The translations under genes were made by a program, and so were the position numbers. A DNA stretch of 46,423 nt, from the NCBI GenBank assembly GCA_030455605.1, contig JAKDPD010000009.1, forward strand, positions 1-46,423. Reading direction: 5' to 3'. Below the pieces are notes generated by a model. That model did no database searches, was not told where the DNA came from, and saw only the letters and a program-made list of their open reading frames with translations. This DNA comes from Lactobacillus sp. GTDB lineage: Bacteria > Bacillota > Bacilli > Lactobacillales > Lactobacillaceae. Of this stretch, positions 2,636 through 43,484 are shown in pieces (the stretch's first letter is position 1; every line of letters starts with the position of its first letter).

Positions 2636-3694
2636 ATGGATGATGAAATAATTGACCTCTACTTGGGACGACCTAGTGGCAAGCGGATGTGGACTGATTT
2701 TCTGACCTCACTTGGTATTCATAATTTTTCAGATAAAGAAATCAAACAAATTGATTTTACGGTGGGCCTCAAGCACGATGGTAAATTAGTGGCGACTGGA
2801 TCAGTGGCTGGTAATGTGCTTAAATATATTGCCGTTTGCAACAAGGGCGCCGTTCCTGGCGCCCGCTTTGCTCAGTTAATCAGTGAGCTAATCAGTCGCC
2901 AGTTTCAGCGTGGTGTGTATCATCTGTTTGTTTTTACTAAACTAAGATATGTTAGTTCCTTTGAACATGCCGGATTTAAGACACTGGCGCAATCAGATTA
3001 TGGTGCTTTTTTGGAAAATGGTACACCGGATGTCCATGACTATTTAAGTGCCATTCCACGTATCCCGCAGCAAGCTGAGAAGAAGGTGGCCGGCATTGTC
3101 ATGAATGCCAACCCCTTTACACTCGGACACCGTTATTTAGTTGAGCAAGCCGCTAAGGCGAATGATTTGGTTTATCTTTTTGTGGTAAACACTGATGCTT
3201 CGCTATTTACGACGGCCGAACGAATGACGCTCGTACAAGCTGGGGTAGCGGATTTAACGAATGTGATGGTTGTCAATGGTGGCTACTATATGGTTAGCTA
3301 TGTAACCTTTCCGGCCTATTTTCTTAAAACCCCAGATGATGAAATTGCCTATCAAACTGAATTAGATGCCCGGATTTTTCGCGATGTGATCGCACCAACC
3401 TTAAATATTAAGACAAGATACGTTGGTTCTGAGCCGCTTTCACATACTACTCACATCTACAATCAGGTATTAGTGCGTGAACTGCCACCATTAGTGGCTA
3501 TGCAGGTGATTACCCGCCGGCAGGTCGGGGAACAAGGCTATATCACAGCAACCGAGGTAAGACGCTGTATCCAGGAAAATGATTTGGCCACTATTGAGAC
3601 GCTAGTCCCAACAACCACGCTCGCATTTATCAAACAACACATTAGTGATTTGCAAGCGCGGATTGTTGCAGGACAACAAATTAGCGGCAATTAG
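2636..3694 (+). CDS. citC: [Citrate (pro-3S)-lyase] ligase CitC
   Basis: CitC uses ATP to acetylate the thiol of the prosthetic group on the citrate lyase acyl-carrier subunit CitD, switching the lyase on in the cytoplasm. The 352-aa length is normal. An N-terminal GNAT-like region (about res 1-130) precedes a nucleotidyltransferase domain with MNANPFTLGHRYLVEQA (about res 156-172), where the GH pair belongs to the ATP-binding HxGH-type motif. The RBS AAAGGAAA precedes the ATG. It starts a new unit after the terminator at 2519-2548 and lies 18 bases before an alpha/beta hydrolase gene. Confidence 0.96.
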   Translation: MDDEIIDLYLGRPSGKRMWTDFLTSLGIHNFSDKEIKQIDFTVGLKHDGKLVATGSVAGNVLKYIAVCNKGAVPGARFAQLISELISRQFQRGVYHLFVFTKLRYVSSFEHAGFKTLAQSDYGAFLENGTPDVHDYLSAIPRIPQQAEKKVAGIVMNANPFTLGHRYLVEQAAKANDLVYLFVVNTDASLFTTAERMTLVQAGVADLTNVMVVNGGYYMVSYVTFPAYFLKTPDDEIAYQTELDARIFRDVIAPTLNIKTRYVGSEPLSHTTHIYNQVLVRELPPLVAMQVITRRQVGEQGYITATEVRRCIQENDLATIETLVPTTTLAFIKQHISDLQARIVAGQQISGN

Positions 3695-3711
3695 AAGCAG
3701 GGTTAGGGAAG

Positions 3712-4503
3712 ATGAAATTTAGAACTAGTGATGGTGTTCAGCTCAGTTATACAGACACCGGGGATATGACTAAACATCCGATTCTTTGTCTACCAGGCAT
3801 CGGCGCTTCACACCATTTATGGGATATATTGGTAAAATTATTAACACCTGATTTTCGGGTATTGGTACTCGATCCTAGAAACCAAGGCCGTTCGCAACGA
3901 ACTTATAAAGGGCAACGAATGAGTATTCATGCGCGTGATGTGTCCGAATTTTGTCAGCAACTGGCACTAACTGGCGTCATTGGAATTGGTAATTCGATGG
4001 GGGCAGCTACGCTTTGGGCCTATCAAAATTTGTATGGTTCTGGTGCTTTTCGAGCAATGGTTGATTTAGATCAATCACCAAAAATGATTCGCGATGATAC
4101 TTGGTCATATGGCTTTACTGACTTAACTTGGGACACCTTTCCCGAGTTGTTAGAACTTGAAAGTGCTCGAGCTGTAGTCGCACCACTTTCAGCTGAGATG
4201 GTTGCGGCAGCTAAAGCCGAATATGCCTCTTATCCATACAGCGCCAGCGACAATTACCGGTTGCTAGTTGATCACGCCTTTCAAGATTGGCGTGATGTGA
4301 TTATGGATACAAAAATTCCTCTACTAGTAGTAGCAGGGGAACAATCACCATATTTCGATTATCATTTTGCTTCAGCCGTTGCGAGTTTAAATCCTAAAGT
4401 GTCGGCGCAAGTCATTTCAAATTGTGGCCATGTCATTCAAGCTGAGCAGCCACAAATATTGTGGCAAACGCTAGTGAAATTCTTACAACACTGCGGGTTT
4501 TAG
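3712..4503 (+). CDS. Alpha/beta hydrolase of unknown substrate
   Basis: This 263-aa alpha/beta-hydrolase fold protein has the nucleophile elbow GNSMGAA (Ser about res 95), an oxyanion-hole segment LPGIG near res 27-31, an acid candidate in GEQSPYFD and the catalytic His in NCGHVIQAEQP near the C-terminus. The triad looks complete, so it should be an active esterase, lactonase or thioesterase-like enzyme, but I cannot assign a substrate. It follows citC by 17 bases and is probably co-transcribed with it. Its last bases overlap the stop codon of the convergent regulator gene. It is not a usual member of cit operons. Confidence 0.85.
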   Translation: MKFRTSDGVQLSYTDTGDMTKHPILCLPGIGASHHLWDILVKLLTPDFRVLVLDPRNQGRSQRTYKGQRMSIHARDVSEFCQQLALTGVIGIGNSMGAATLWAYQNLYGSGAFRAMVDLDQSPKMIRDDTWSYGFTDLTWDTFPELLELESARAVVAPLSAEMVAAAKAEYASYPYSASDNYRLLVDHAFQDWRDVIMDTKIPLLVVAGEQSPYFDYHFASAVASLNPKVSAQVISNCGHVIQAEQPQILWQTLVKFLQHCGF

Positions 4504-5456
4504 CGATCTTGATAACGCCGAATTAGGCGCTTGGCGATACCTTCATTAATGACGAGGTGGGTAATTAAGCCGGCCCGTAAAGCCCCTAAGAGTGAATCGA
4601 CCTTGAATTTGTTTTTAACAATAGCAAAACGAATCGGGATATTGAACAGGTGCTCATGATTAATACCCACGACCTTAGCTTCCACACTAGGGAAGATTTT
4701 GCCATGAATATCATACGCGCGGCCGTAGGCCATCCCAGCAATTTTACTCTGATCAATACCGTCAAAGATAATATCTTTATATTCTGCCCAAACGGGGTTA
4801 GATTCCAGTGATTGCACCGTACCTAGTCCCGTAAAAATCAAATCAAGATCCTGATACTTATGCTGTAACCTTTCAAAGATTGGTTCCTGATTAAGCATTT
4901 TCTTTGTCCCAGGATTGAAGATATAAAGTGGCGCTGGTACGACAACCGCATTTTTAGTTGCTCTAAATTTATCTGATGCCCGTAAAATTAACGAAAAAGG
5001 GGCATCAGGGCTATTATGGCGCAATGAAAAGCCTGCTAGTTGAACAAACGCCAAATCATCCCGTCGTGCTTCTTGAAAGTTATTGATGGTGTCCAAGATA
5101 GTGGAACCCCAAGTCATACCTACTGTATGACAAGATTTAATATAATTTTGAATGGTTGTGGCCGCAAAAGCAACCAGTGCTTCATTATCATGGGTAGTGG
5201 TATCTAGGGAGCGTAAAACAAAAACCTCTTTTAAGTTGAACTTCTTTTTAAGGGTCGCTTCATACCGACTAAAGCGCTTGACACTCTCTTTAATACTAAT
5301 TTGCACGATACCACTTTTTTCAGCTTCCTCTAAAGCTTTGGCAACGAGGTAGCGCGAGATATCATATTTATGGGTAATCTCAGTGATGGGGAGTTTACTA
5401 ATATAATAGTCACGAGCAATTTCGGCAAGCTGCTCGGAGGGATCTTTTTCTGACAT
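4500..5456 (-). CDS. citI: SorC/DeoR-type transcriptional regulator, CitI-like
   Basis: This 318-aa regulator has an N-terminal helix-turn-helix (about res 18-55, with LPITEITHKYDISRYLVAKA) and a C-terminal SorC-type sugar/effector-binding domain (about res 60-315). Regulators of this family (CitI) activate citrate operons in Weissella and other lactic acid bacteria in response to citrate. Here the gene is divergent from citDEF across a 366-base AT-rich region with palindromes, which supports control of citDEF and possibly of itself. Its stop codon overlaps that of the convergent hydrolase gene by 4 bases, with no terminator between them. CitI identity rests on family plus context. Confidence 0.88.
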   Translation of the reverse strand: MSEKDPSEQLAEIARDYYISKLPITEITHKYDISRYLVAKALEEAEKSGIVQISIKESVKRFSRYEATLKKKFNLKEVFVLRSLDTTTHDNEALVAFAATTIQNYIKSCHTVGMTWGSTILDTINNFQEARRDDLAFVQLAGFSLRHNSPDAPFSLILRASDKFRATKNAVVVPAPLYIFNPGTKKMLNQEPIFERLQHKYQDLDLIFTGLGTVQSLESNPVWAEYKDIIFDGIDQSKIAGMAYGRAYDIHGKIFPSVEAKVVGINHEHLFNIPIRFAIVKNKFKVDSLLGALRAGLITHLVINEGIAKRLIRRYQDR

Positions 5457-36069: not shown

Positions 36070-36543
36070 ATGCCATTTTTATATTTGATAATCTCCCTAA
36101 TCGTTGTGCTAGCTGATCAAGGATTGAAAAGTTATATTGCTAGCAATTATCAGCTGGGAGAGATTCATAACATCATCCCGGGATTATTTTCATTTAACTA
36201 TCTCCAAAATCCTGGAGCTGCTTGGAACATTCTAATGGGCCAAATGTGGTTCTTTTATATTATTAGCCTCATTGCTATCGGTGTTTGTAGCTACTTTCTA
36301 TGGTCAAAGCGCTATCGAAAGCCATTATTACAAACTGGGTTAGCTTTCGTACTTGGTGGTATCATCGGCAATTTCATTGATCGATTACACCTCAAGTATG
36401 TCATCGATATGATTCAACTTGATTTTTTAAATTTCAATATTTTCAATTTAGCTGATTCTGCAATCACAATTGGCGTCATTTTAATTATGATTTATTTACT
36501 CTTTTTCGATGACAAAACACGCACTAAGGAGCGCAAAGAATGA
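36070..36543 (+). CDS. lspA: Lipoprotein signal peptidase (signal peptidase II)
   Basis: LspA cleaves lipoprotein signal peptides in the membrane after lipid modification. The 157-aa protein has four transmembrane segments. Conserved motifs are DQGLK (res 16-20), NPGAAW (res 47-52), GNFIDR (res 100-105) and the catalytic Asp pair D113 (YVIDMIQ) and D129 (FNLADSAI). Its stop overlaps the rluD ATG (ATGA), giving a coupled lspA-rluD pair as in most Firmicutes. Confidence 0.96.
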   Translation: MPFLYLIISLIVVLADQGLKSYIASNYQLGEIHNIIPGLFSFNYLQNPGAAWNILMGQMWFFYIISLIAIGVCSYFLWSKRYRKPLLQTGLAFVLGGIIGNFIDRLHLKYVIDMIQLDFLNFNIFNLADSAITIGVILIMIYLLFFDDKTRTKERKE

Positions 36544-37469
36544 CTGAACATTATGAACTAACGGCGACGACAACCCATAAACGACTTGACCGTTGGCTAG
36601 CTGAAGCGCTACCCAAGCTATCACGTATCCAGCTCAAAACGCTTATTAAGGATGGCCATGTGACTGTCAATTCGCATCCTGAAAAAGCTTCATATTCGGT
36701 ATTAGCTAAAGACTTTGTGACTGTTGACGTGCCAGCATTACAACCATTGTCACTCGTTCCAGAAGATATCCCACTCGATATTGTCTATGAAGATGATGAT
36801 GTGCTGGTCGTTAATAAACCGCAGGGCATGGTCGTCCATCCCGCAGCTGGTCATCCTGACCATACGCTCGTTAATGCACTATTATTCCATACTAAAAAAT
36901 TAGCAAATAGCCCAGAAAGTTTTCGACCAGGTATTGTCCATCGCATTGATAAGGACACTTCTGGTTTACTGATGGTTGCTAAAAATGCCGCTGCGCGTGA
37001 AGCATTGGAGCAACAGCTTGCACATAAAAGTAATGAACGCTTATATGTCGCAATTGTTCATGGTAATTTTAGTGAACAATCCGGCCGGGTAGTCGCACCA
37101 ATTGGTCGCGATCGGGTTAATCGTAAAAAGATGGCCGTTGTTCCTAACGGCAAGTCTGCTGTCACACACTTTAAAGTCTTAGAGCAATTTGCTGGTTATA
37201 GTCTGATCTCATGTCGTTTAGAAACTGGACGAACCCATCAAATTCGCGTTCACTTGGCTTTTATTGGGCATCCCGTTGCGGGAGATCCTTTATACGGTCC
37301 AAGAAAGACACTGCCTGGGCATGGGCAATTTTTGCATGCCCAGACTTTGGGCTTTAAGCATCCGAGGACGGGAAAGGTGCTTTCTTTCTCTGTGAACCCA
37401 CCGCAAATTTTCCAAACGACTTTAGCTAAGCTAGAAAAGGAAAAAGATGAAACGATTTCTGATTCTTGA
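36540..37469 (+). CDS. rluD: RluD-type 23S rRNA pseudouridine synthase
   Basis: This enzyme isomerises uridines of 23S rRNA (helix 69 in E. coli RluD). The 309-aa protein has an N-terminal S4 RNA-binding domain (about res 14-65) and an RluA-family catalytic domain with D137 in HRIDKDTSGLL and the RTHQIRVH motif near res 232. It overlaps lspA by 4 bases at its start and the CarA-like gene by 23 bases at its end. In Bacillus the pyr operon follows this gene. Confidence 0.95.
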   Translation: MTEHYELTATTTHKRLDRWLAEALPKLSRIQLKTLIKDGHVTVNSHPEKASYSVLAKDFVTVDVPALQPLSLVPEDIPLDIVYEDDDVLVVNKPQGMVVHPAAGHPDHTLVNALLFHTKKLANSPESFRPGIVHRIDKDTSGLLMVAKNAAAREALEQQLAHKSNERLYVAIVHGNFSEQSGRVVAPIGRDRVNRKKMAVVPNGKSAVTHFKVLEQFAGYSLISCRLETGRTHQIRVHLAFIGHPVAGDPLYGPRKTLPGHGQFLHAQTLGFKHPRTGKVLSFSVNPPQIFQTTLAKLEKEKDETISDS

Positions 37470-38502
37470 GGATGGCCGCTTTTTTGCTGGGACCGGTCTC
37501 GGTGCATCGATTATCTCGACCGGTGAGTTAGCGATTCATACTGGCAATTACGGCTACCAAGAGGCATTAACAGATCCAACAAATGCTGGGAAAATTCTGG
37601 CGTTTACCACACCGCTAATTGGTGCGACTGGAATTAATACAATTGATTACGAAAGTATTAATCCACTTATCAAAGGCGTCATTATGAACGATGTTGTTGC
37701 TAGCTCAGCCGATAATAATGAGCTACAAGACTTAAGTTCTTTTCTAATTGAGAAGAAAATTCCTGCCATTTATCAGGTCGATACTCGGGCACTCGTTCAT
37801 TTGGTGCAAGCTGAAGAAAAAATCAAAGTATCCATTATGGATACTAATGATGCCCACGCGTTTGACCAAATCAAAGCGCTGGTTTTACCAAAGAACAAAT
37901 CGGCCATGTATTCCACTAAGAATGCCTATGCGGCACCGAATGTCGGGAAGTCGATTGCGGTGATTGACTTAGGGTTGAAACACTCGATGTTACGTTCACT
38001 TTCACTACGCAAGGTGAACGTCACGGTTTTACCAGCTAACGCAACTAAAACTGATATTCAAAATTTACGGCCGGATGGGATTGTGATTTCTAATGGTCCC
38101 GGCAAAACTGATGAAATATTGCCAACATTAGCCCCAATTTTGACGGAATTTTATGGCGAATTACCAATTTTAGGTATTGGACTAGGATTTTTAGTAATTG
38201 CCGACTTCCTTAATTTTGCAATCACCCCCTTACCGCACGCATTCAACGGGACTAATTATCCCGTCATCGAACAAAACTCTGATCGAATTTGGCAAACTGC
38301 CATGAACATTAGTAGTTTAATTTATCCCGACAGTATCAAAATGAATTTGGACCAAGAGTTCTTCGATATTCATACTGACCTGGTTGCTGGATTTGTTAAC
38401 TTAGCAGATAAAGTCGTGGCCACAGCCTTTAACCCTGAGGGCTCACCCGGAAGCTGGGAAGCTTCGCGAATTTTTGACACTTTTTTGAAGATGATGGAGT
38501 AA
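37447..38502 (+). CDS. carA: CarA-like protein (carbamoyl-phosphate synthase small subunit) with lost glutaminase triad
   Basis: The 351-aa protein is full length. It has the CPSase small-subunit N-domain (LILEDGRFF, TGNYGYQEALTDP, VDTRAL) and a class I glutamine amidotransferase domain (IDLGLKHSMLR, VISNGPG, PEGSPG). The catalytic Cys of GICLGHQ is replaced by G245 in GIGLGFL, the next His is F248, and the triad His of YHPE is N329 in FNPE; only E331 remains. It therefore should not hydrolyse glutamine. No stop or frameshift is present. It overlaps rluD by 23 bases, has RBS AAAGGAAAA, and is followed 6 bases later by a degenerate carB. A structural or regulatory role is an inference. Confidence 0.88.
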   Translation: MKRFLILEDGRFFAGTGLGASIISTGELAIHTGNYGYQEALTDPTNAGKILAFTTPLIGATGINTIDYESINPLIKGVIMNDVVASSADNNELQDLSSFLIEKKIPAIYQVDTRALVHLVQAEEKIKVSIMDTNDAHAFDQIKALVLPKNKSAMYSTKNAYAAPNVGKSIAVIDLGLKHSMLRSLSLRKVNVTVLPANATKTDIQNLRPDGIVISNGPGKTDEILPTLAPILTEFYGELPILGIGLGFLVIADFLNFAITPLPHAFNGTNYPVIEQNSDRIWQTAMNISSLIYPDSIKMNLDQEFFDIHTDLVAGFVNLADKVVATAFNPEGSPGSWEASRIFDTFLKMME

Positions 38503-38508
38503 CGTCAT

Positions 38509-41500
38509 ATGCCACGTGAAAATGATTTAAATAAAGTTCTGATCATTAGTTCAGGTCCAACCTTAGTAGGGAATGTCGCTGAGATGGACCTGTTAGTTAC
38601 TGATGCCATTAAATCCTTTTTAGAAGAAGAAATTCACGTCATCTTAGTCAATCCGAATCCAGCTACCATTTCAACCGATAAACAACCTGGCGTAACGACT
38701 TACTTAGAACCGATGACCTTACCGTTTTTAAAACGTATCTTGCGGATGGAGGAGCCTGATGAAATTGTAACTGCTTATGGCTCAACCACGAGCGTCAAAA
38801 TCACTCGTAAACTGATTCAAGACGGTATTTTGAGCGAAATGCAAATTAAGCTGCTAACCATTAACCCGCAAATCTTGGCATTAGAAACACCGGTTAAGCA
38901 AGCAGCTTTTCTTAAGACATTACGCATTGGGGTTGCCAAACATTGGCAATTACAACCGCGAACCCGGGAGGCATTGCTCGCAGAAGTGCGGCAATTAAGT
39001 CCTAACCTCACTTTTCCAATTCTGATTACTAAAAGGCACCGCTATGTTCATAGCGACCATTACCACGCCAAAAATAGCCATGAATTATTAACTTATTTTA
39101 AGACTGAAGCGGAAATCGACGAATTTTCATCGCAAAATTATCAACTCGTCGAAGACTTATCAGGCTGGGAAGAAATCATTTGTAACGTTATTCGTGATCA
39201 TGATGGTAATTGCTTATTTGTTAATTTTGCTGGGTCGCTAGAACCCGTACAAATTAATTCGGGTGATTCAACCATGGTCATGCCAGCCATTACCCTCAGC
39301 AACGATGATTTACAGAATCTCAAAATTTTAGCACACAAATTAATCAACCATTTGAATCTGGTCGGGATTATGTGCCTGCATTTTGCGATTAAACATACCG
39401 GTACCCACCTAGAAGCTAAACTCTTATCGCTAAAACCACGTCTGACCAAATCTGCCATTTGGGCCGAAAAGGTGATGCTTTATAATGTTGGCTACGTTCT
39501 AAGCAAAGTCGCCCTAGGCTACCGGTTAAATGAAATTATTGATCCTGATTCTGGCCTCAATGCTGCCATTGAGCCAATTCAAGATAATTTTGCGATTCGA
39601 ATGCCTTACTGGTCTTTAGCAGAGTCTGGTAAGAATCACTATGCCCTGAATAGCCAAACCCAGGCGAGTGGGGAGGCGATTGGAATTGGTCGCAACTTTG
39701 CAACGGCCTTCTTGAAGGCCATTACCGGCACTACCAATTTAGAATTGGCTCACCAAGTCCTGCGTCAGAGTTTAGCTAAAACACATGCTGAAATTATAAC
39801 CGAGTTAACCAATTATGATGAACAGCACTGGATTAAGTTACTAGCGGCGATTGCGACCGGTTTAACTGAAAAAGAATTGTATCCCAGTTTACATCTCAAG
39901 CACGTTTACTTCCAAAAATTAGCAGCAATTGTTCATATTGGTCAAACACTGCATGATACACAATCGGAAGCAGTCACCTTATCCTCGCAACTGCTCACTC
40001 AGGCCAAAATTCATGGCTTTTCGAATGAGTTAATTGCGCTCTTAAGTCATCGGCCACTTGCTGAGATTGATCGTTTGGTTGACCAGGCTGGGCTAGTGCC
40101 CGCCTATGTGCAAATTGATGGCACGGCTGGGTTTTATCGGCCACCTGTCAATGCTTTTTATGGGGCTTATGATGTCCAAGACGAAGCCAGCGTGATTACT
40201 AATCCCAAGAAATTACTCATTGTGGGTATGCTGCCGCTACAGGTATCTGTCACTAGTGAATTCGACTATATGCTGGCACACGCTTTAAAGACTTTACATA
40301 AAAATAATTATTTCACTGTATTGCTATCTAATAATGATGAAGCGGTCTCCAGTCGCTACCGTGATGTCGACCGGTCTTACGTAGAGCCGATTTCAATTGA
40401 AAATATTGTTAAGATTGCACAACATGAAGGAATTAATGAAGTCCTGTTACAATTTTCAGGGAAAAAAGTTATTAGTATGGCACATGCACTTGCATTGCGG
40501 GGGCTAAAAGTCATTGGTGGCAGTGACGGTCTGAAAGAAAAGATTCATGAATTATTAACCCAACCACTACTAGGGTTAAGTCAGGTGCCGTCCATGACAA
40601 CAACGGATCATCAACAACTTAACCAATTCATTGATAAGTATGGCTTTCCATTATTAATTGGCGGGAGTAGCCAGCAAATTAAACAAAAATCAGCGGTTGT
40701 TTATGACAAACCAGCGATGGAACAGTACTTGGTTGAGACGCAACTTGACCGCTTAGTGGCATCACTCTTCATCGAAGGCTGTAAATATGAAGTCATTGGT
40801 ATTTCTGACGGTGATACGGTAACCATTCCAGGCGTGATTGAACATTTGGAACAGACTGGATCACATGCATCTGACTCCATTGCCGTCTTTAAACCACAAA
40901 GTCTGGCCGCTAAAGATGAACAGCTAATGATTCAAGCTTCGATGACCATGCTACATCAACTTAGTAGCATCGGAATTTTTAACCTTCACTTTTTACGTGC
41001 TAACAACGCGTTGTATTTATTACAAATCAAACCGTATGCAGGTCATAACGTTGCTTTTCTCTCGCAAGCGCTTGGGCAAGATATTACAGCTTGTGCCACT
41101 AACGTGTTAATTGGTAAAAAGCTCAAGACAATGGGGTTCCCAGAAGGAACTTGGGAAAGTAATCAGTTTATTCATATTAAAATGCCGGTCTTTTCTTACA
41201 TTGATTATCAAAGTGAAAATACGTTCGACTCCAAAATGAAATCTTCTGGATCGGTCATCGGACGCGATACGCAACTCGCTAAAGCCTTGTATAAAGGTTA
41301 TGAAGCGAGCGATTTGCCGATTCCAAGCTACGGGACAATCTTTATATCCGTACGTGATCAAGATAAAGTTGCCGCCACCGAGCTGGCTATTCGGTTTCAT
41401 CGCCTCGGTTTTAAAATACTGGCAACTGAAGGCACTGCTAACATGTTCGCGGAAGCTGGAATCACGACTGGTGTGGTCACTAAAATCCATGACAATTCCC

Positions 41501-41703
41501 ATAATTTATTGACCAAAATTCGCCAACATAAAGTTGGCATGGTTATTAATATCACTAATCTATCTGATGCGGCTAGCCAAGATGCCATTGCCATTCGCGA
41601 TCAAGCACTTTATACGCATATTCCAGTTTGTTCAACTTTAGAAACGGCCGAATTGGTCGCTAAGGTGCTTGAAAGTCTAGCCTTAACCACCTTACCGATT
41701 TAA
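38509..41703 (+). CDS. carB: CarB-like protein (carbamoyl-phosphate synthase large subunit) with both ATP-grasp sites degenerate
   Basis: The 1064-aa protein is normal CarB length and keeps the order ATP-grasp 1, oligomerisation, ATP-grasp 2, allosteric MGS domain. In half 1, the EMNPR metal motif reads SLKPR (307-311), the NVQF Gln is H291, and the RPSxxxGGxGGG loop is lost (ITKRHRYVHSDHY, 173-185). In half 2, EVNPR reads QIKPY (839-843), the Gln is H827, and RPSxxxGGRAMEIVY reads IGGSSQQIKQKSAVVY. The C-terminal domain (about res 935-1055, YGTIFISVRD, ILATEGTA, VVTKI) closely follows functional Firmicute PyrAB. Catalysis is unlikely. The frame is open throughout, and a clean terminator follows. 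Confidence 0.88.
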   Translation: MPRENDLNKVLIISSGPTLVGNVAEMDLLVTDAIKSFLEEEIHVILVNPNPATISTDKQPGVTTYLEPMTLPFLKRILRMEEPDEIVTAYGSTTSVKITRKLIQDGILSEMQIKLLTINPQILALETPVKQAAFLKTLRIGVAKHWQLQPRTREALLAEVRQLSPNLTFPILITKRHRYVHSDHYHAKNSHELLTYFKTEAEIDEFSSQNYQLVEDLSGWEEIICNVIRDHDGNCLFVNFAGSLEPVQINSGDSTMVMPAITLSNDDLQNLKILAHKLINHLNLVGIMCLHFAIKHTGTHLEAKLLSLKPRLTKSAIWAEKVMLYNVGYVLSKVALGYRLNEIIDPDSGLNAAIEPIQDNFAIRMPYWSLAESGKNHYALNSQTQASGEAIGIGRNFATAFLKAITGTTNLELAHQVLRQSLAKTHAEIITELTNYDEQHWIKLLAAIATGLTEKELYPSLHLKHVYFQKLAAIVHIGQTLHDTQSEAVTLSSQLLTQAKIHGFSNELIALLSHRPLAEIDRLVDQAGLVPAYVQIDGTAGFYRPPVNAFYGAYDVQDEASVITNPKKLLIVGMLPLQVSVTSEFDYMLAHALKTLHKNNYFTVLLSNNDEAVSSRYRDVDRSYVEPISIENIVKIAQHEGINEVLLQFSGKKVISMAHALALRGLKVIGGSDGLKEKIHELLTQPLLGLSQVPSMTTTDHQQLNQFIDKYGFPLLIGGSSQQIKQKSAVVYDKPAMEQYLVETQLDRLVASLFIEGCKYEVIGISDGDTVTIPGVIEHLEQTGSHASDSIAVFKPQSLAAKDEQLMIQASMTMLHQLSSIGIFNLHFLRANNALYLLQIKPYAGHNVAFLSQALGQDITACATNVLIGKKLKTMGFPEGTWESNQFIHIKMPVFSYIDYQSENTFDSKMKSSGSVIGRDTQLAKALYKGYEASDLPIPSYGTIFISVRDQDKVAATELAIRFHRLGFKILATEGTANMFAEAGITTGVVTKIHDNSHNLLTKIRQHKVGMVINITNLSDAASQDAIAIRDQALYTHIPVCSTLETAELVAKVLESLALTTLPI

Positions 41704-41764: not shown

Positions 41765-43456
41765 TTAAGCTTGTTTTTTTCCTAAAACCACTTCTGCGAC
41801 TGGTGTGACTTCAATCGAGTTTTGACCAGTATAAATGACAAAACCAGGTTTGGCACCATTAGGTTTTTTAACGCGTTTCGTCTGCACATAATCGACTTGG
41901 ACATGCGATGAAAGTCGGCCCTTCGAAAAATAGGCAGCAATTTCAGCAGTTTCGCGAATATCAGCATCAGTTGGATGAGCCGTTTTTAAAATGACATGTG
42001 AACCAGGAATATCTTTAACATGGAACCAATAGTCAGTCTTATCGGCTTTTTTAAAGGTTAGCCAATCATTTTGATAATTATTTTTTCCAACCCAAACTGC
42101 AGTTCCAGAAGAGACTACAAACCGATTTAAATCATGTTCACTAATTCGCTTTTTTCGTTTGTGCTTGTCTTGTTGCTTAATGTAACCCTGGTTAACTAAT
42201 TCATCCGTAATTTGATCAATATCCTGAGGATCAGCATTATCAATCGCCGTTTTAATCGAATCGAAATAATCCAAGTTGCCTTGTGTCAACGCAATCTGCG
42301 TGTGAACATGCTTAATTGAATCACGCAATTTTTTATACTTACTAAAATACTTTTGGGCATTACGAGCAGGGGAGAGTGCGGGATTAAGTTGAATCGTAAT
42401 GGGTTCATTATTTTGATAATAATTCGGAACTTTTACGACTGTCATGCCAGCTTTGACTGCTGCCAAGTTGGCATTTAACATCTCACCTTTAATCCGATAA
42501 GCTTCAGAATTTTCAGCTTGATCAAGTTGCTTGGTCAGTTTGACCAACTTTTTGCTTAATTTCTTTTGTTCATTCTTGACAACACGTGCCACTTTACCAG
42601 CTTTTTGCTTAACCCAATCCCGGCTGGCACGGTATTCATAGAATTGATCAAGACCACGGCTTAAATTTGGTTCCAAGCTCTCTTTACGCAAATCTAAGTG
42701 GTAGGGAAGATAAGGGAAAATTTTGCGTTTATTAGTGGGCGAAATCAGGGTAAATGCTCGCGGATTATTAAACTGCTCAAAAAAGGTCTGCACCGAGGCA
42801 TAAGAATAATCATCTGCTAAGTAACCCATTAGCTCTAAGCGATCATCTTTATCAAGACCACTAAATTGTTTAGCTAGCAGTTCACCATCAGGATATTTCG
42901 TTTTTAATTGCGAAAATTGCGACGCTGTCAATGAGAGACCATTAATCCCTGGTAGTAATGGTGGCAACTCATACTTTGCCTTGGGTAACAAGAGGCGTGC
43001 TCGGTTTTCATCTGGACTAATTCGTTTAAGTAAATCAATAATGTGACCATCTGCTTGATTATAGAGAATCACATTACTATGACGTCCCATAAGCTCCACC
43101 GATAAGACGAGCTGTACTTCGTCGCCTAATTCATTACGGTTACTAAAATGAAAATTAACGATTCGGTCTAAACCAACTTGTTCAATTTGTTGTAAAACTG
43201 ATCCTTCTAAATACTTACGTAAAACCATCACAAAGGTAGGGGCTTTATCGGGATTAGCAATTGTCTGCTGCGTTAAATAAAAGCGTGGATATTGCGAATT
43301 AGCCGAAACTAATAAAGCTTGATTATGACGCTCTTTACGAAAGACCAATACTAAATCTTGTTCAAACGGCTGATAAATCTTTGATAAGCGTCCACCTATT
43401 AGGGTAGGGGAGAGCTCTGTAAGTAAACTGTGAATGAATAAACCATCAAATGCCAT
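41765..43456 (-). CDS. rqcH: RqcH (NFACT/FbpA family), ribosome quality-control factor
   Basis: RqcH binds obstructed 50S subunits and recruits tRNA-Ala to add C-terminal Ala tails that mark nascent chains for degradation. I start at ATG 43456, just after GAGGTGG on the reverse strand. This numbering puts the tRNA-selecting Asp-Arg pair at D97-R98 (GLDRIVNF), exactly as in B. subtilis. The 563-aa protein has NFACT-N (1-200), a HhH/coiled-coil region with a Lys-rich helix (about 270-400) and the C-terminal NFACT-R domain (about 440-550, DYWFHVKDIPGSHVI). It is monocistronic; older names are fbpA and yloA. Confidence 0.95.
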   Translation of the reverse strand: MAFDGLFIHSLLTELSPTLIGGRLSKIYQPFEQDLVLVFRKERHNQALLVSANSQYPRFYLTQQTIANPDKAPTFVMVLRKYLEGSVLQQIEQVGLDRIVNFHFSNRNELGDEVQLVLSVELMGRHSNVILYNQADGHIIDLLKRISPDENRARLLLPKAKYELPPLLPGINGLSLTASQFSQLKTKYPDGELLAKQFSGLDKDDRLELMGYLADDYSYASVQTFFEQFNNPRAFTLISPTNKRKIFPYLPYHLDLRKESLEPNLSRGLDQFYEYRASRDWVKQKAGKVARVVKNEQKKLSKKLVKLTKQLDQAENSEAYRIKGEMLNANLAAVKAGMTVVKVPNYYQNNEPITIQLNPALSPARNAQKYFSKYKKLRDSIKHVHTQIALTQGNLDYFDSIKTAIDNADPQDIDQITDELVNQGYIKQQDKHKRKKRISEHDLNRFVVSSGTAVWVGKNNYQNDWLTFKKADKTDYWFHVKDIPGSHVILKTAHPTDADIRETAEIAAYFSKGRLSSHVQVDYVQTKRVKKPNGAKPGFVIYTGQNSIEVTPVAEVVLGKKQA

Positions 43457-43484
43457 AAATACCACCTCAAAAAGATACCTATTA

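Follow-up and report, generated by a model that had tools for sequence, protein, structure and literature searches.

A Lactobacillus homologue pair of carbamoyl-phosphate synthetase without catalytic residues but with a preserved allosteric nucleotide pocket

The CarA'–CarB' gene pair

Our analysis of a 46,423-nucleotide stretch of Lactobacillus sp. DNA (contig JAKDPD010000009.1 of assembly GCA_030455605.1; the whole stretch is called 'the window' below) concerns two adjacent genes for homologues of the small and large subunits of carbamoyl-phosphate synthetase (CPS), the enzyme with which pyrimidine synthesis begins. We name their products CarA' and CarB', the prime sign denoting catalytically altered CPS homologues, and refer to normal CarA and CarB as 'canonical'. 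This pair has lost the catalytic residues of its glutaminase and of both ATP-grasp sites and is subject to strong purifying selection, relative constraint having moved to the nucleotide pocket of the C-terminal allosteric (MGS) domain and to a re-specified cleft in the second synthetase half. The features of the pair are:

37447..38502, forward strand: CarA', CPS small-subunit homologue (351 aa; Pfam CPSase_sm_chain and GATase)
38509..41703, forward strand: CarB', CPS large-subunit homologue with catalytic residues replaced (1064 aa, ATG start, intact open reading frame)
38890..39732, forward strand: half-1 ATP-grasp domain of CarB', residues 128–408; active-site residues lost, mostly to varied residues
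39427..39441, forward strand: SLKPR, residues 307–311, replacing E-x-N-P-R of half 1
40534..41313, forward strand: half-2 ATP-grasp domain of CarB', residues 676–935; most catalytic residues changed to invariant new ones
41023..41037, forward strand: QIKPY, residues 839–843, replacing E-x-N-P-R of half 2
41314..41673, forward strand: MGS domain of CarB', residues 936–1055; phosphate pocket intact, slowest-evolving domain

Domain borders and roles of residues follow the literature on E. coli CPS, with the letter at each E. coli number being checked; one position, N1022, did not fit and was dropped.

Pfam finds CPS large-subunit domains in CarB' from end to end (CPSase_L_D1, D2 and D3 as well as MGS), and the entire layout of the CPS superfamily is present, that is, two halves each consisting of a pre-ATP-grasp and an ATP-grasp domain, the oligomerisation domain and the MGS domain. 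An AlphaFold2 model of CarB' calculated from 65 sequences (pLDDT 89.1, pTM 0.91) superimposes on E. coli CPS (1a9x_A) with a VIA-align Z-score of 43.6 and an r.m.s.d. of 2.7 for 988 aligned residues, and Foldseek and VIA structure searches confirm CPS. Hence, based on the Pfam domains and this superposition, the predicted fold of CarB' is that of full-length CPS. When compared with the NCBIfam models, CarB' scores 604 bits for PRK05294, just above the cut-off of 599, and 590.4 bits for CPSaseII_lrg (TIGR01369), below the curated cut-off of 1027, while CarA' scores 392 for PRK12838 (cut-off 221). Since both proteins thus pass an equivalog cut-off, automatic annotation is likely to call them CPS, and species having only CarA'B' would be misrepresented in metabolic models built on these names.

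Catalytic residues and selective constraint

A preliminary description, made from the letters of the window alone, had recognised CarB' as a CarB-like protein with both ATP-grasp active sites lost. It omitted CarA', and the adjoining small subunit is likewise without catalytic residues and is conserved along with CarB'. In the window, the catalytic Cys of CarA' is Gly (residue 245) and the catalytic His is Asn (residue 329). Using E. coli numbering, C269 is replaced by Gly, H353 by Asn and Q273 by Leu in 58 of 58 CarA', and H272 by Phe in 57; of C269, H353 and E355, which we take to be the glutaminase triad, E355 is kept throughout (58/58). Mean identity of CarA' is 0.77 in the N-terminal domain (0.78 for seven canonical proteins) and 0.64 in the glutaminase domain (canonical, 0.82). 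A separate observation is that the glutaminase Cys is also Gly in nine of the 31 canonical CarA rows (L102, L110, L115, L116, L118, L120, L121, L123 and L126); these nine adjoin a CarB with intact catalytic residues and possibly belong to ammonia-dependent CPS.

For CarB', 57 distinct sequences of more than 1000 aa (window included) were compared with 33 canonical rows including E. coli. Repeats and partial or split copies were excluded (G001, G031, G020/L023/L090, L094, L097, L101), and a Mycoplasma record (L113) is absent from the canonical rows because it has no frame above 1000 aa under translation table 11, presumably owing to its genetic code. Residues 291 and 827 of the window CarB' correspond to Q285 and Q829 of E. 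coli CarB, residues 307/309/311 to E299/N301/R303, and residues 839/841/843 to E841/N843/R845; E. coli numbers are used from here on unless stated otherwise. What the preliminary description had read from these sites is borne out: SLKPR and QIKPY were located where listed above, His stands in place of the paired Gln in both halves (H291 and H827 in CarB' numbering), and the two RPSxxxGG phosphate loops are unrecognisable, no RPS motif being present in the window CarB'. The Arg of E-x-N-P-R survives in half 1, and half 2 has lost all three residues of the motif.

In half 1, none of the 57 CarB' keeps R129, R169, D207, H243, Q285 or E299, and only one keeps N301. Varied residues have taken the place of R129 (Gln, His, Pro and others), R169 (Thr, Ile, Ser and others) and E299 (Ser, Thr, Gly and others), while replacement is nearly uniform at Q285 (His in 55/57) and H243 (Asn in 53/57), with N301 being Lys in 45/57; E215 and R303 are retained in 56 each, R306 in 39 and N283 in 19. 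Among these positions, R129, R169, Q285, E299, N301 and R303 are presumably the half-1 ATP/metal residues. In half 2, seven replacements (R571Q, R715G, D753S, E761K, E841Q, N843K and R848H) are fixed in 57/57 and two more nearly so (R845Y in 56, Q829H in 55), and each of R715, E761, Q829, E841, N843, R845 and R848, which we take to be the ATP/metal residues of this half, is retained in none of the 57. Exceptions to fixation are R675 (Lys in 28, Arg in 12, others in the remainder) and N827 (Asn in 34, Thr in 22); H781, H788 and K891 are retained in every CarB'. The canonical rows keep all residues tested in both halves, except for D207, which is Glu in 32 of the 33. Parallel loss in the two halves, as proposed in the preliminary description, thus holds for the catalytic residues of CPS, but the halves are not equally dead: half 1 is varied and half 2 mostly fixed.

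The fixation of one new residue at most half-2 positions is more suggestive of a re-specified site than of an empty scaffold. Sites invariant in canonical CarB have changed to another invariant residue at 22 of 112 positions in the half-2 ATP-grasp domain, versus nine of 134 in that of half 1 (Fisher p 0.003); if the pre-ATP-grasp part of half 2 is included, 28 such sites are found, eight of which are catalytic positions of CPS and several others their sequence neighbours. These counts and the 57/57 replacements would be expected of a new enzyme in which half 2 has been re-specified as a catalytic or substrate site under nucleotide control at the MGS domain, the conserved K759, H786, S788, D789, S790, H827, Q839, K841, Y843 and H846 (CarB' numbering) forming that site. 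However, the metal-ligand residues are gone (E841Q, N843K, Q829H), which makes ordinary Mg-ATP chemistry unlikely, R675 and N827 are not fixed, and the neighbouring genes suggest neither a substrate nor a pathway gap; we consider a new enzyme unlikely, though deserving of attention.

The MGS domain presents the opposite picture. S948, K954, T974, T977, K993 and N1015 are intact in all 57 CarB', and T1017 in 52; of these, K954, T974, T977, K993 and N1015 are assumed here to line the nucleotide pocket. The same pocket is less uniform among the 33 canonical rows, where K993 is found in 20 and N1015 in 14. Site rates (LG+G4, IQ-TREE in fast mode; 55 CarB' of the genus versus 25 canonical CarB of Lactobacillus, 1026 sites, protein mean set to 1) make MGS the slowest domain of CarB' (0.52) and the second fastest of canonical CarB (1.57). 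The respective values for CarB' and canonical CarB are 1.07 and 0.74 for the half-1 ATP-grasp domain, 1.01 and 0.98 for that of half 2, 0.61 and 0.58 for the half-1 pre-ATP-grasp domain, 0.94 and 0.69 for that of half 2, and 1.64 and 1.68 for the oligomerisation domain. The allosteric domain of CarB' thus does not evolve at the pace of the dead domains, being slower than the ATP-grasp domains of half 1 (p 1e-10) and half 2 (p 4e-4). In the 22 genomes with both genes, MGS has a relative rate of 0.59 in CarB' and 1.59 in canonical CarB, the two ATP-grasp domains of CarB' being at 1.09 (half 1) and 0.93 (half 2) and its half-1 pre-ATP-grasp domain close to MGS at 0.62. Consistently, sites that are invariant in the 25 canonical proteins and E. 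coli are retained at 12 of 19 MGS positions and at 81 of 412 elsewhere (Fisher p 7e-5), and the mean relative rate at the functional site positions is 0.55 in half 1 (11 positions), 0.38 in half 2 (12) and 0.13 in the MGS pocket (6). The rates therefore support the earlier proposal of a sensor domain under stronger constraint than the remainder of the protein.

Close CarB' pairs exhibit dN/dS values of 0.02–0.08 (12 of 13 non-overlapping pairs yielded a value; five of the twelve have dS >1, near saturation, and the other seven give the same range), and these exclude a pseudogene. Together with the 57 distinct orthologues, they also exclude chance, frameshift, sequencing error or assembly artefact as the source of the replacements. 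A decaying duplicate without function might be argued from the lost active sites, from the faster overall evolution of CarB' (tree length 5.4 versus 2.1 for canonical CarB on matched genomes) and from one split copy described below; given such low dN/dS, an MGS rate below that of canonical CarB and retention in every good genome, we regard it as very improbable.

Distribution and origin of the pair

CarB' (at least 48% identity) was found in 74 of 75 genomes of Lactobacillus sensu stricto, and the one genome without it is 59% complete; the 74 copies include two partial ones and a split one. All 60 good genomes, defined by completeness of at least 90% and contamination of at most 5%, carry CarB', counting the split copy of G020. 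In a family sample of 201 genomes from 40 genera, CarB' (at least 43%) is present in 8/8 Lactobacillus, in 2/2 genomes of a second genus (g45) and in the single genome of g57, Holzapfeliella floricola. It was not found in the 190 other Lactobacillaceae genomes, where among the matches listed (to E ∼1e-136) none exceeds 32% and three genomes have no match; partial pieces weaker than that E-value could be missed.

Forty-five of the 60 good genomes carry both CarB' and an intact canonical CarB, and in the other 15 canonical CarB is missing or broken while CarB' is present in all of them. Twelve of these have CarB' only (G002, G003, G004, G008, G012, G025, G255, G257, G263, G271, G273, G284), G020 contains CarB' only as fragments, and in G009 and G013 the canonical carB gene is present but broken. 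The single-contig genome G086 of genus g45 likewise has CarB' without an intact canonical CarB and without PyrB, its PyrR being encoded elsewhere in the genome. PyrB exceeds the cut-off in 40 of 61 genomes; PyrR has no match at E 1e-10 in six of 49 good genomes, and PyrP none at that value in G004, G008 and, among good genomes, also G034. The window genome (85.9% complete) has PyrR and PyrP, with neither PyrB over the cut-off nor canonical CarB. PyrR and PyrP are accordingly excluded as obligate partners, and PyrR-like matches at 23–24% identity in G004 and G008 were taken to be other phosphoribosyltransferases. As a side observation, a second PyrR-like gene (65–69% identical to the PyrR of G034) directly follows canonical carB in G005, G010, G011, G015, G036 and G096.

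Hence, since CarA'B' is kept in genomes without PyrB, normal CarB or PyrR, the pair is not simply a CPS subunit, and a role as nothing but a subunit of canonical CarAB is excluded by the 15 good genomes lacking an intact canonical CarB. A wider version of this idea has CarA'B' regulate, or help to assemble, the canonical CarAB in the same cell by way of mixed oligomers. The 45 genomes holding both enzymes would suit such a partner, as would a precedent, the inactive dihydroorotase of Pseudomonas putida treated in a passage of PMC6022934, and the case of Holzapfeliella floricola, where the CarB' retains the MGS pocket that the active-looking CarB has lost. In the latter (L047, 6305–9487) the catalytic residues are intact and the pocket is destroyed (K954P, T974I, T977N, K993E); the K-T-T-K-N pocket is kept in 43 of 45 other canonical Lactobacillaceae CarBs compared. 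However, the pair persists in the 15 genomes without intact canonical CarB and in the single-contig G086, so that its target is not canonical CarAB alone, and we judge the partnership improbable.

The genes around the pair in the window are:

36070..36543, forward strand: lspA (signal peptidase II), ancestral neighbour, precedes rluD
36540..37469, forward strand: rluD (pseudouridine synthase), ancestral neighbour, with a 23-base overlap with the start of carA'
41765..43465, reverse strand: rqcH/NFACT gene, convergent with carB'; in other Lactobacillaceae it likewise borders the pyr operon on the downstream side

Upstream of carA', rluD has the same orientation as the pair in all 91 loci showing both genes, the gap in Lactobacillus being −23 to 18 bases in 87 of the 91 (repeats of a genome included in both counts), and rqcH is convergent in 86 of 92 loci and may be out of view in the remaining six. 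Such tight spacing could be taken to indicate a pure scaffold or moonlighting protein unrelated to nucleotides, tied, for example, to RluD, LspA or RqcH. But these neighbours are inherited from an ancestral pyr locus, the residues preserved in CarB' are those of a nucleotide pocket, and in Lactobacillus corticis (L098) another gene separates rluD from carA'; we therefore rate a scaffold of this kind as improbable too, marginally more so than the partnership with CarAB. The separating gene (2912–4771) encodes 619 aa with a relationship to phosphoglycerol transferases (182 bits for NCBIfam PRK03776, below its cut-off), so that carA'B' there may be transcribed apart from lspA-rluD.

In four other Lactobacillaceae genera (L149, L150, L155, L159) the order is lspA-rluD-pyrR-pyrP-pyrB-pyrC-carA-carB-pyrD-pyrF-pyrE followed by convergent rqcH. 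Of the 20 pyr loci fetched, L166 has the same order with rqcH out of view, and in the other 15 no lspA-rluD is visible immediately ahead of the pyr genes. The borders of the CarA'B' locus are those of this lspA-rluD…rqcH operon, and intermediate arrangements exist: Holzapfeliella (L032) keeps pyrR and pyrP between rluD and carA', and G086 (L031) keeps pyrP ahead of carA'-carB', the upstream genes of G123 not being readable on its short contig. Synteny thus shows that CarA'B' is an in-place remnant of an ancestral lspA-rluD-pyrR-pyrP-pyrBC-carAB operon. The PyrR-binding RNA RF00515 of Rfam precedes pyrP-carA'-carB' in L031 and pyrR-pyrP-carA'-carB' in L032 (56.7 and 55.7 bits, respectively) and is likewise present in a repeat locus (L093), the PyrR gene passes NCBIfam NF003549 (190 vs 138), and the two permeases pass the cut-off of the NCS2 superfamily, with uracil permease as the best match below its own cut-off (420 and 439 vs 477). 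Given the known action of PyrR, such a leader in two genera implies that the dead pair would be co-produced there with a permease at low UMP. In Lactobacillus itself, carA'B' is separated from pyrR and pyrP.

In the tree, CarB' forms a clade with a support of 100 and a stem of 1.65, whose sister group is the canonical CarB of Lactobacillaceae at a support of only 67 and with long-branch attraction likely; the canonical CarB of Lactobacillus clusters with L164 and L166 at a support of 100, and that of Holzapfeliella with L157 and L151 (93, 89). It is conceivable, then, that the active pyr operons may have been reacquired by horizontal transfer, which the tree fits and does not prove.

Proposed function and relation to known systems

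It is thus attractive to propose that CarA'–CarB' is a pseudo-CPS from the ancestral pyr operon that was turned into a nucleotide-responsive regulatory complex with a putative ligand and target, and on the present comparisons we consider this somewhat probable. In such a history, the pyrimidine-regulated CPS pair would have stayed between rluD and rqcH when the locus lost pyrB, pyrC, pyrD, pyrF and pyrE. The MGS pocket would bind a nucleotide of the class of UMP, PRPP and IMP, the signal would travel from MGS to half 2 along the allosteric route known from CPS, half 2 would now bind a different ligand or a partner protein, and the output may link uptake, or some other process, to the status of pyrimidines or PRPP. 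In its simplest form, the old allosteric circuit would be kept with its output changed, a nucleotide going in and an altered state of half 2 coming out; enzymatic inactivity, ligand, direction and target are steps which we infer. The effectors that bind to MGS in CPS exert their influence mainly on the carbamoyl-phosphate half, and the parts kept or re-made in CarB' are exactly the MGS pocket and the half-2 cleft. Whether a two-subunit enzyme became a nucleotide-gated switch whose half-2 cleft handles a new ligand or reaction under MGS control, throughout the genus including species without the pathway, is a more specific proposal that we put forward tentatively and hold rather doubtful.

Several observations weigh against a nucleotide-responsive complex. 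(i) The MGS domain of the window is 31% identical to that of Lactobacillus canonical CarB (mean of six), the other domains being at 20–39%, and the preliminary description of it as close to normal Firmicute PyrAB applies to the ligand pocket, kept in 57/57, and not to overall identity, which is no better than elsewhere; the low value arises because MGS evolves fast in normal CarB (28% between canonical Lactobacillus CarB and E. coli). (ii) Constraint on MGS could reflect a new protein interface, and the half-1 site positions, although looser, are still constrained at the mean rate given above. (iii) In G020 (L. hamsteri; contig C72, L023, L090) CarB' is split near residue 961 into two overlapping frames, by real loss or decay or by an assembly or sequencing error. 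(iv) G004 and G008, without matches to PyrR and PyrP, and also without PyrB and canonical CarB at the thresholds used, have a full-length CarB'. (v) Among the genomes whose context could be read, just two (G086, G099) display the link to PyrR and pyrP, with RF00515 barely above its gathering score of 54, and no RF00515 at gathering score was found before carA' of Lactobacillus (L001, L034, L040, L051, L088, L098); this last absence is weak evidence, given that the RNA model, when applied to two canonical pyr operons of Lactobacillus, likewise failed to detect one of them (L043).

A side observation on canonical CarB concerns a fusion with DapF in clostridial metagenome-assembled contigs (L103, 6001–10035; L119, 6001–10053), in which a CarB of ∼1345–1351 aa bears a C-terminal diaminopimelate epimerase domain (PF01678); frames of similar length occur in many of L104–L126, Pfam having been run on L103 and L119.

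Among known systems, the PyrR/PyrP module of Firmicute pyr operons resembles the arrangement in Holzapfeliella and g45, where an RF00515 leader precedes the genes of a PyrP-like permease and CarA'B', and differs from Lactobacillus, where that linkage is broken. According to a passage of PMC6022934, an inactive dihydroorotase is needed for assembly of the aspartate transcarbamoylase of P. putida. This is likewise a dead pyrimidine enzyme kept, there for a structural role, but as described it forms part of an active enzyme complex, whereas CarA'B' survives where active CPS is gone. Pyrimidine-pathway pseudoenzymes are thus known as a kind, and the case of CarA'B' is new as far as searched: among the titles and abstract starts listed for open-licence PMC papers, there was no report of this pair or of a CPS pseudoenzyme, and there were no transposon essentiality data for CarA'B'.

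Human CPS1 (5dou, 5dot) shares the fold, a degenerate glutaminase and an allosteric C-terminal domain. Having lost the glutaminase Cys, it is an active ammonia-dependent enzyme with both ATP-grasp sites kept, which CarB' does not retain. The bacterial CPS (CarAB/PyrAA-PyrAB; E. coli 1bxr, 1a9x) agrees with CarA'B' in domain order, in predicted fold over ∼990 residues, in having two subunit genes side by side, in the residues of the MGS pocket and in the ancestral pyr locus. In contrast, CarA'B' lacks the glutaminase Cys/His and most of the metal-, ATP- and substrate-binding residues in both synthetase halves, CarB' is just ∼25–27% identical, and the pair is retained without the rest of the pathway. 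The mechanism by which UMP inhibits CPS II is called still obscure in a passage of PMC6022934, and CarA'B' could reveal how allostery in CPS operates once it is uncoupled from catalysis. When set beside canonical CPS, the pair constitutes a natural experiment, with the same fold, often next to the active enzyme in one cell, and with selection shifted away from catalysis and towards the allosteric domain.

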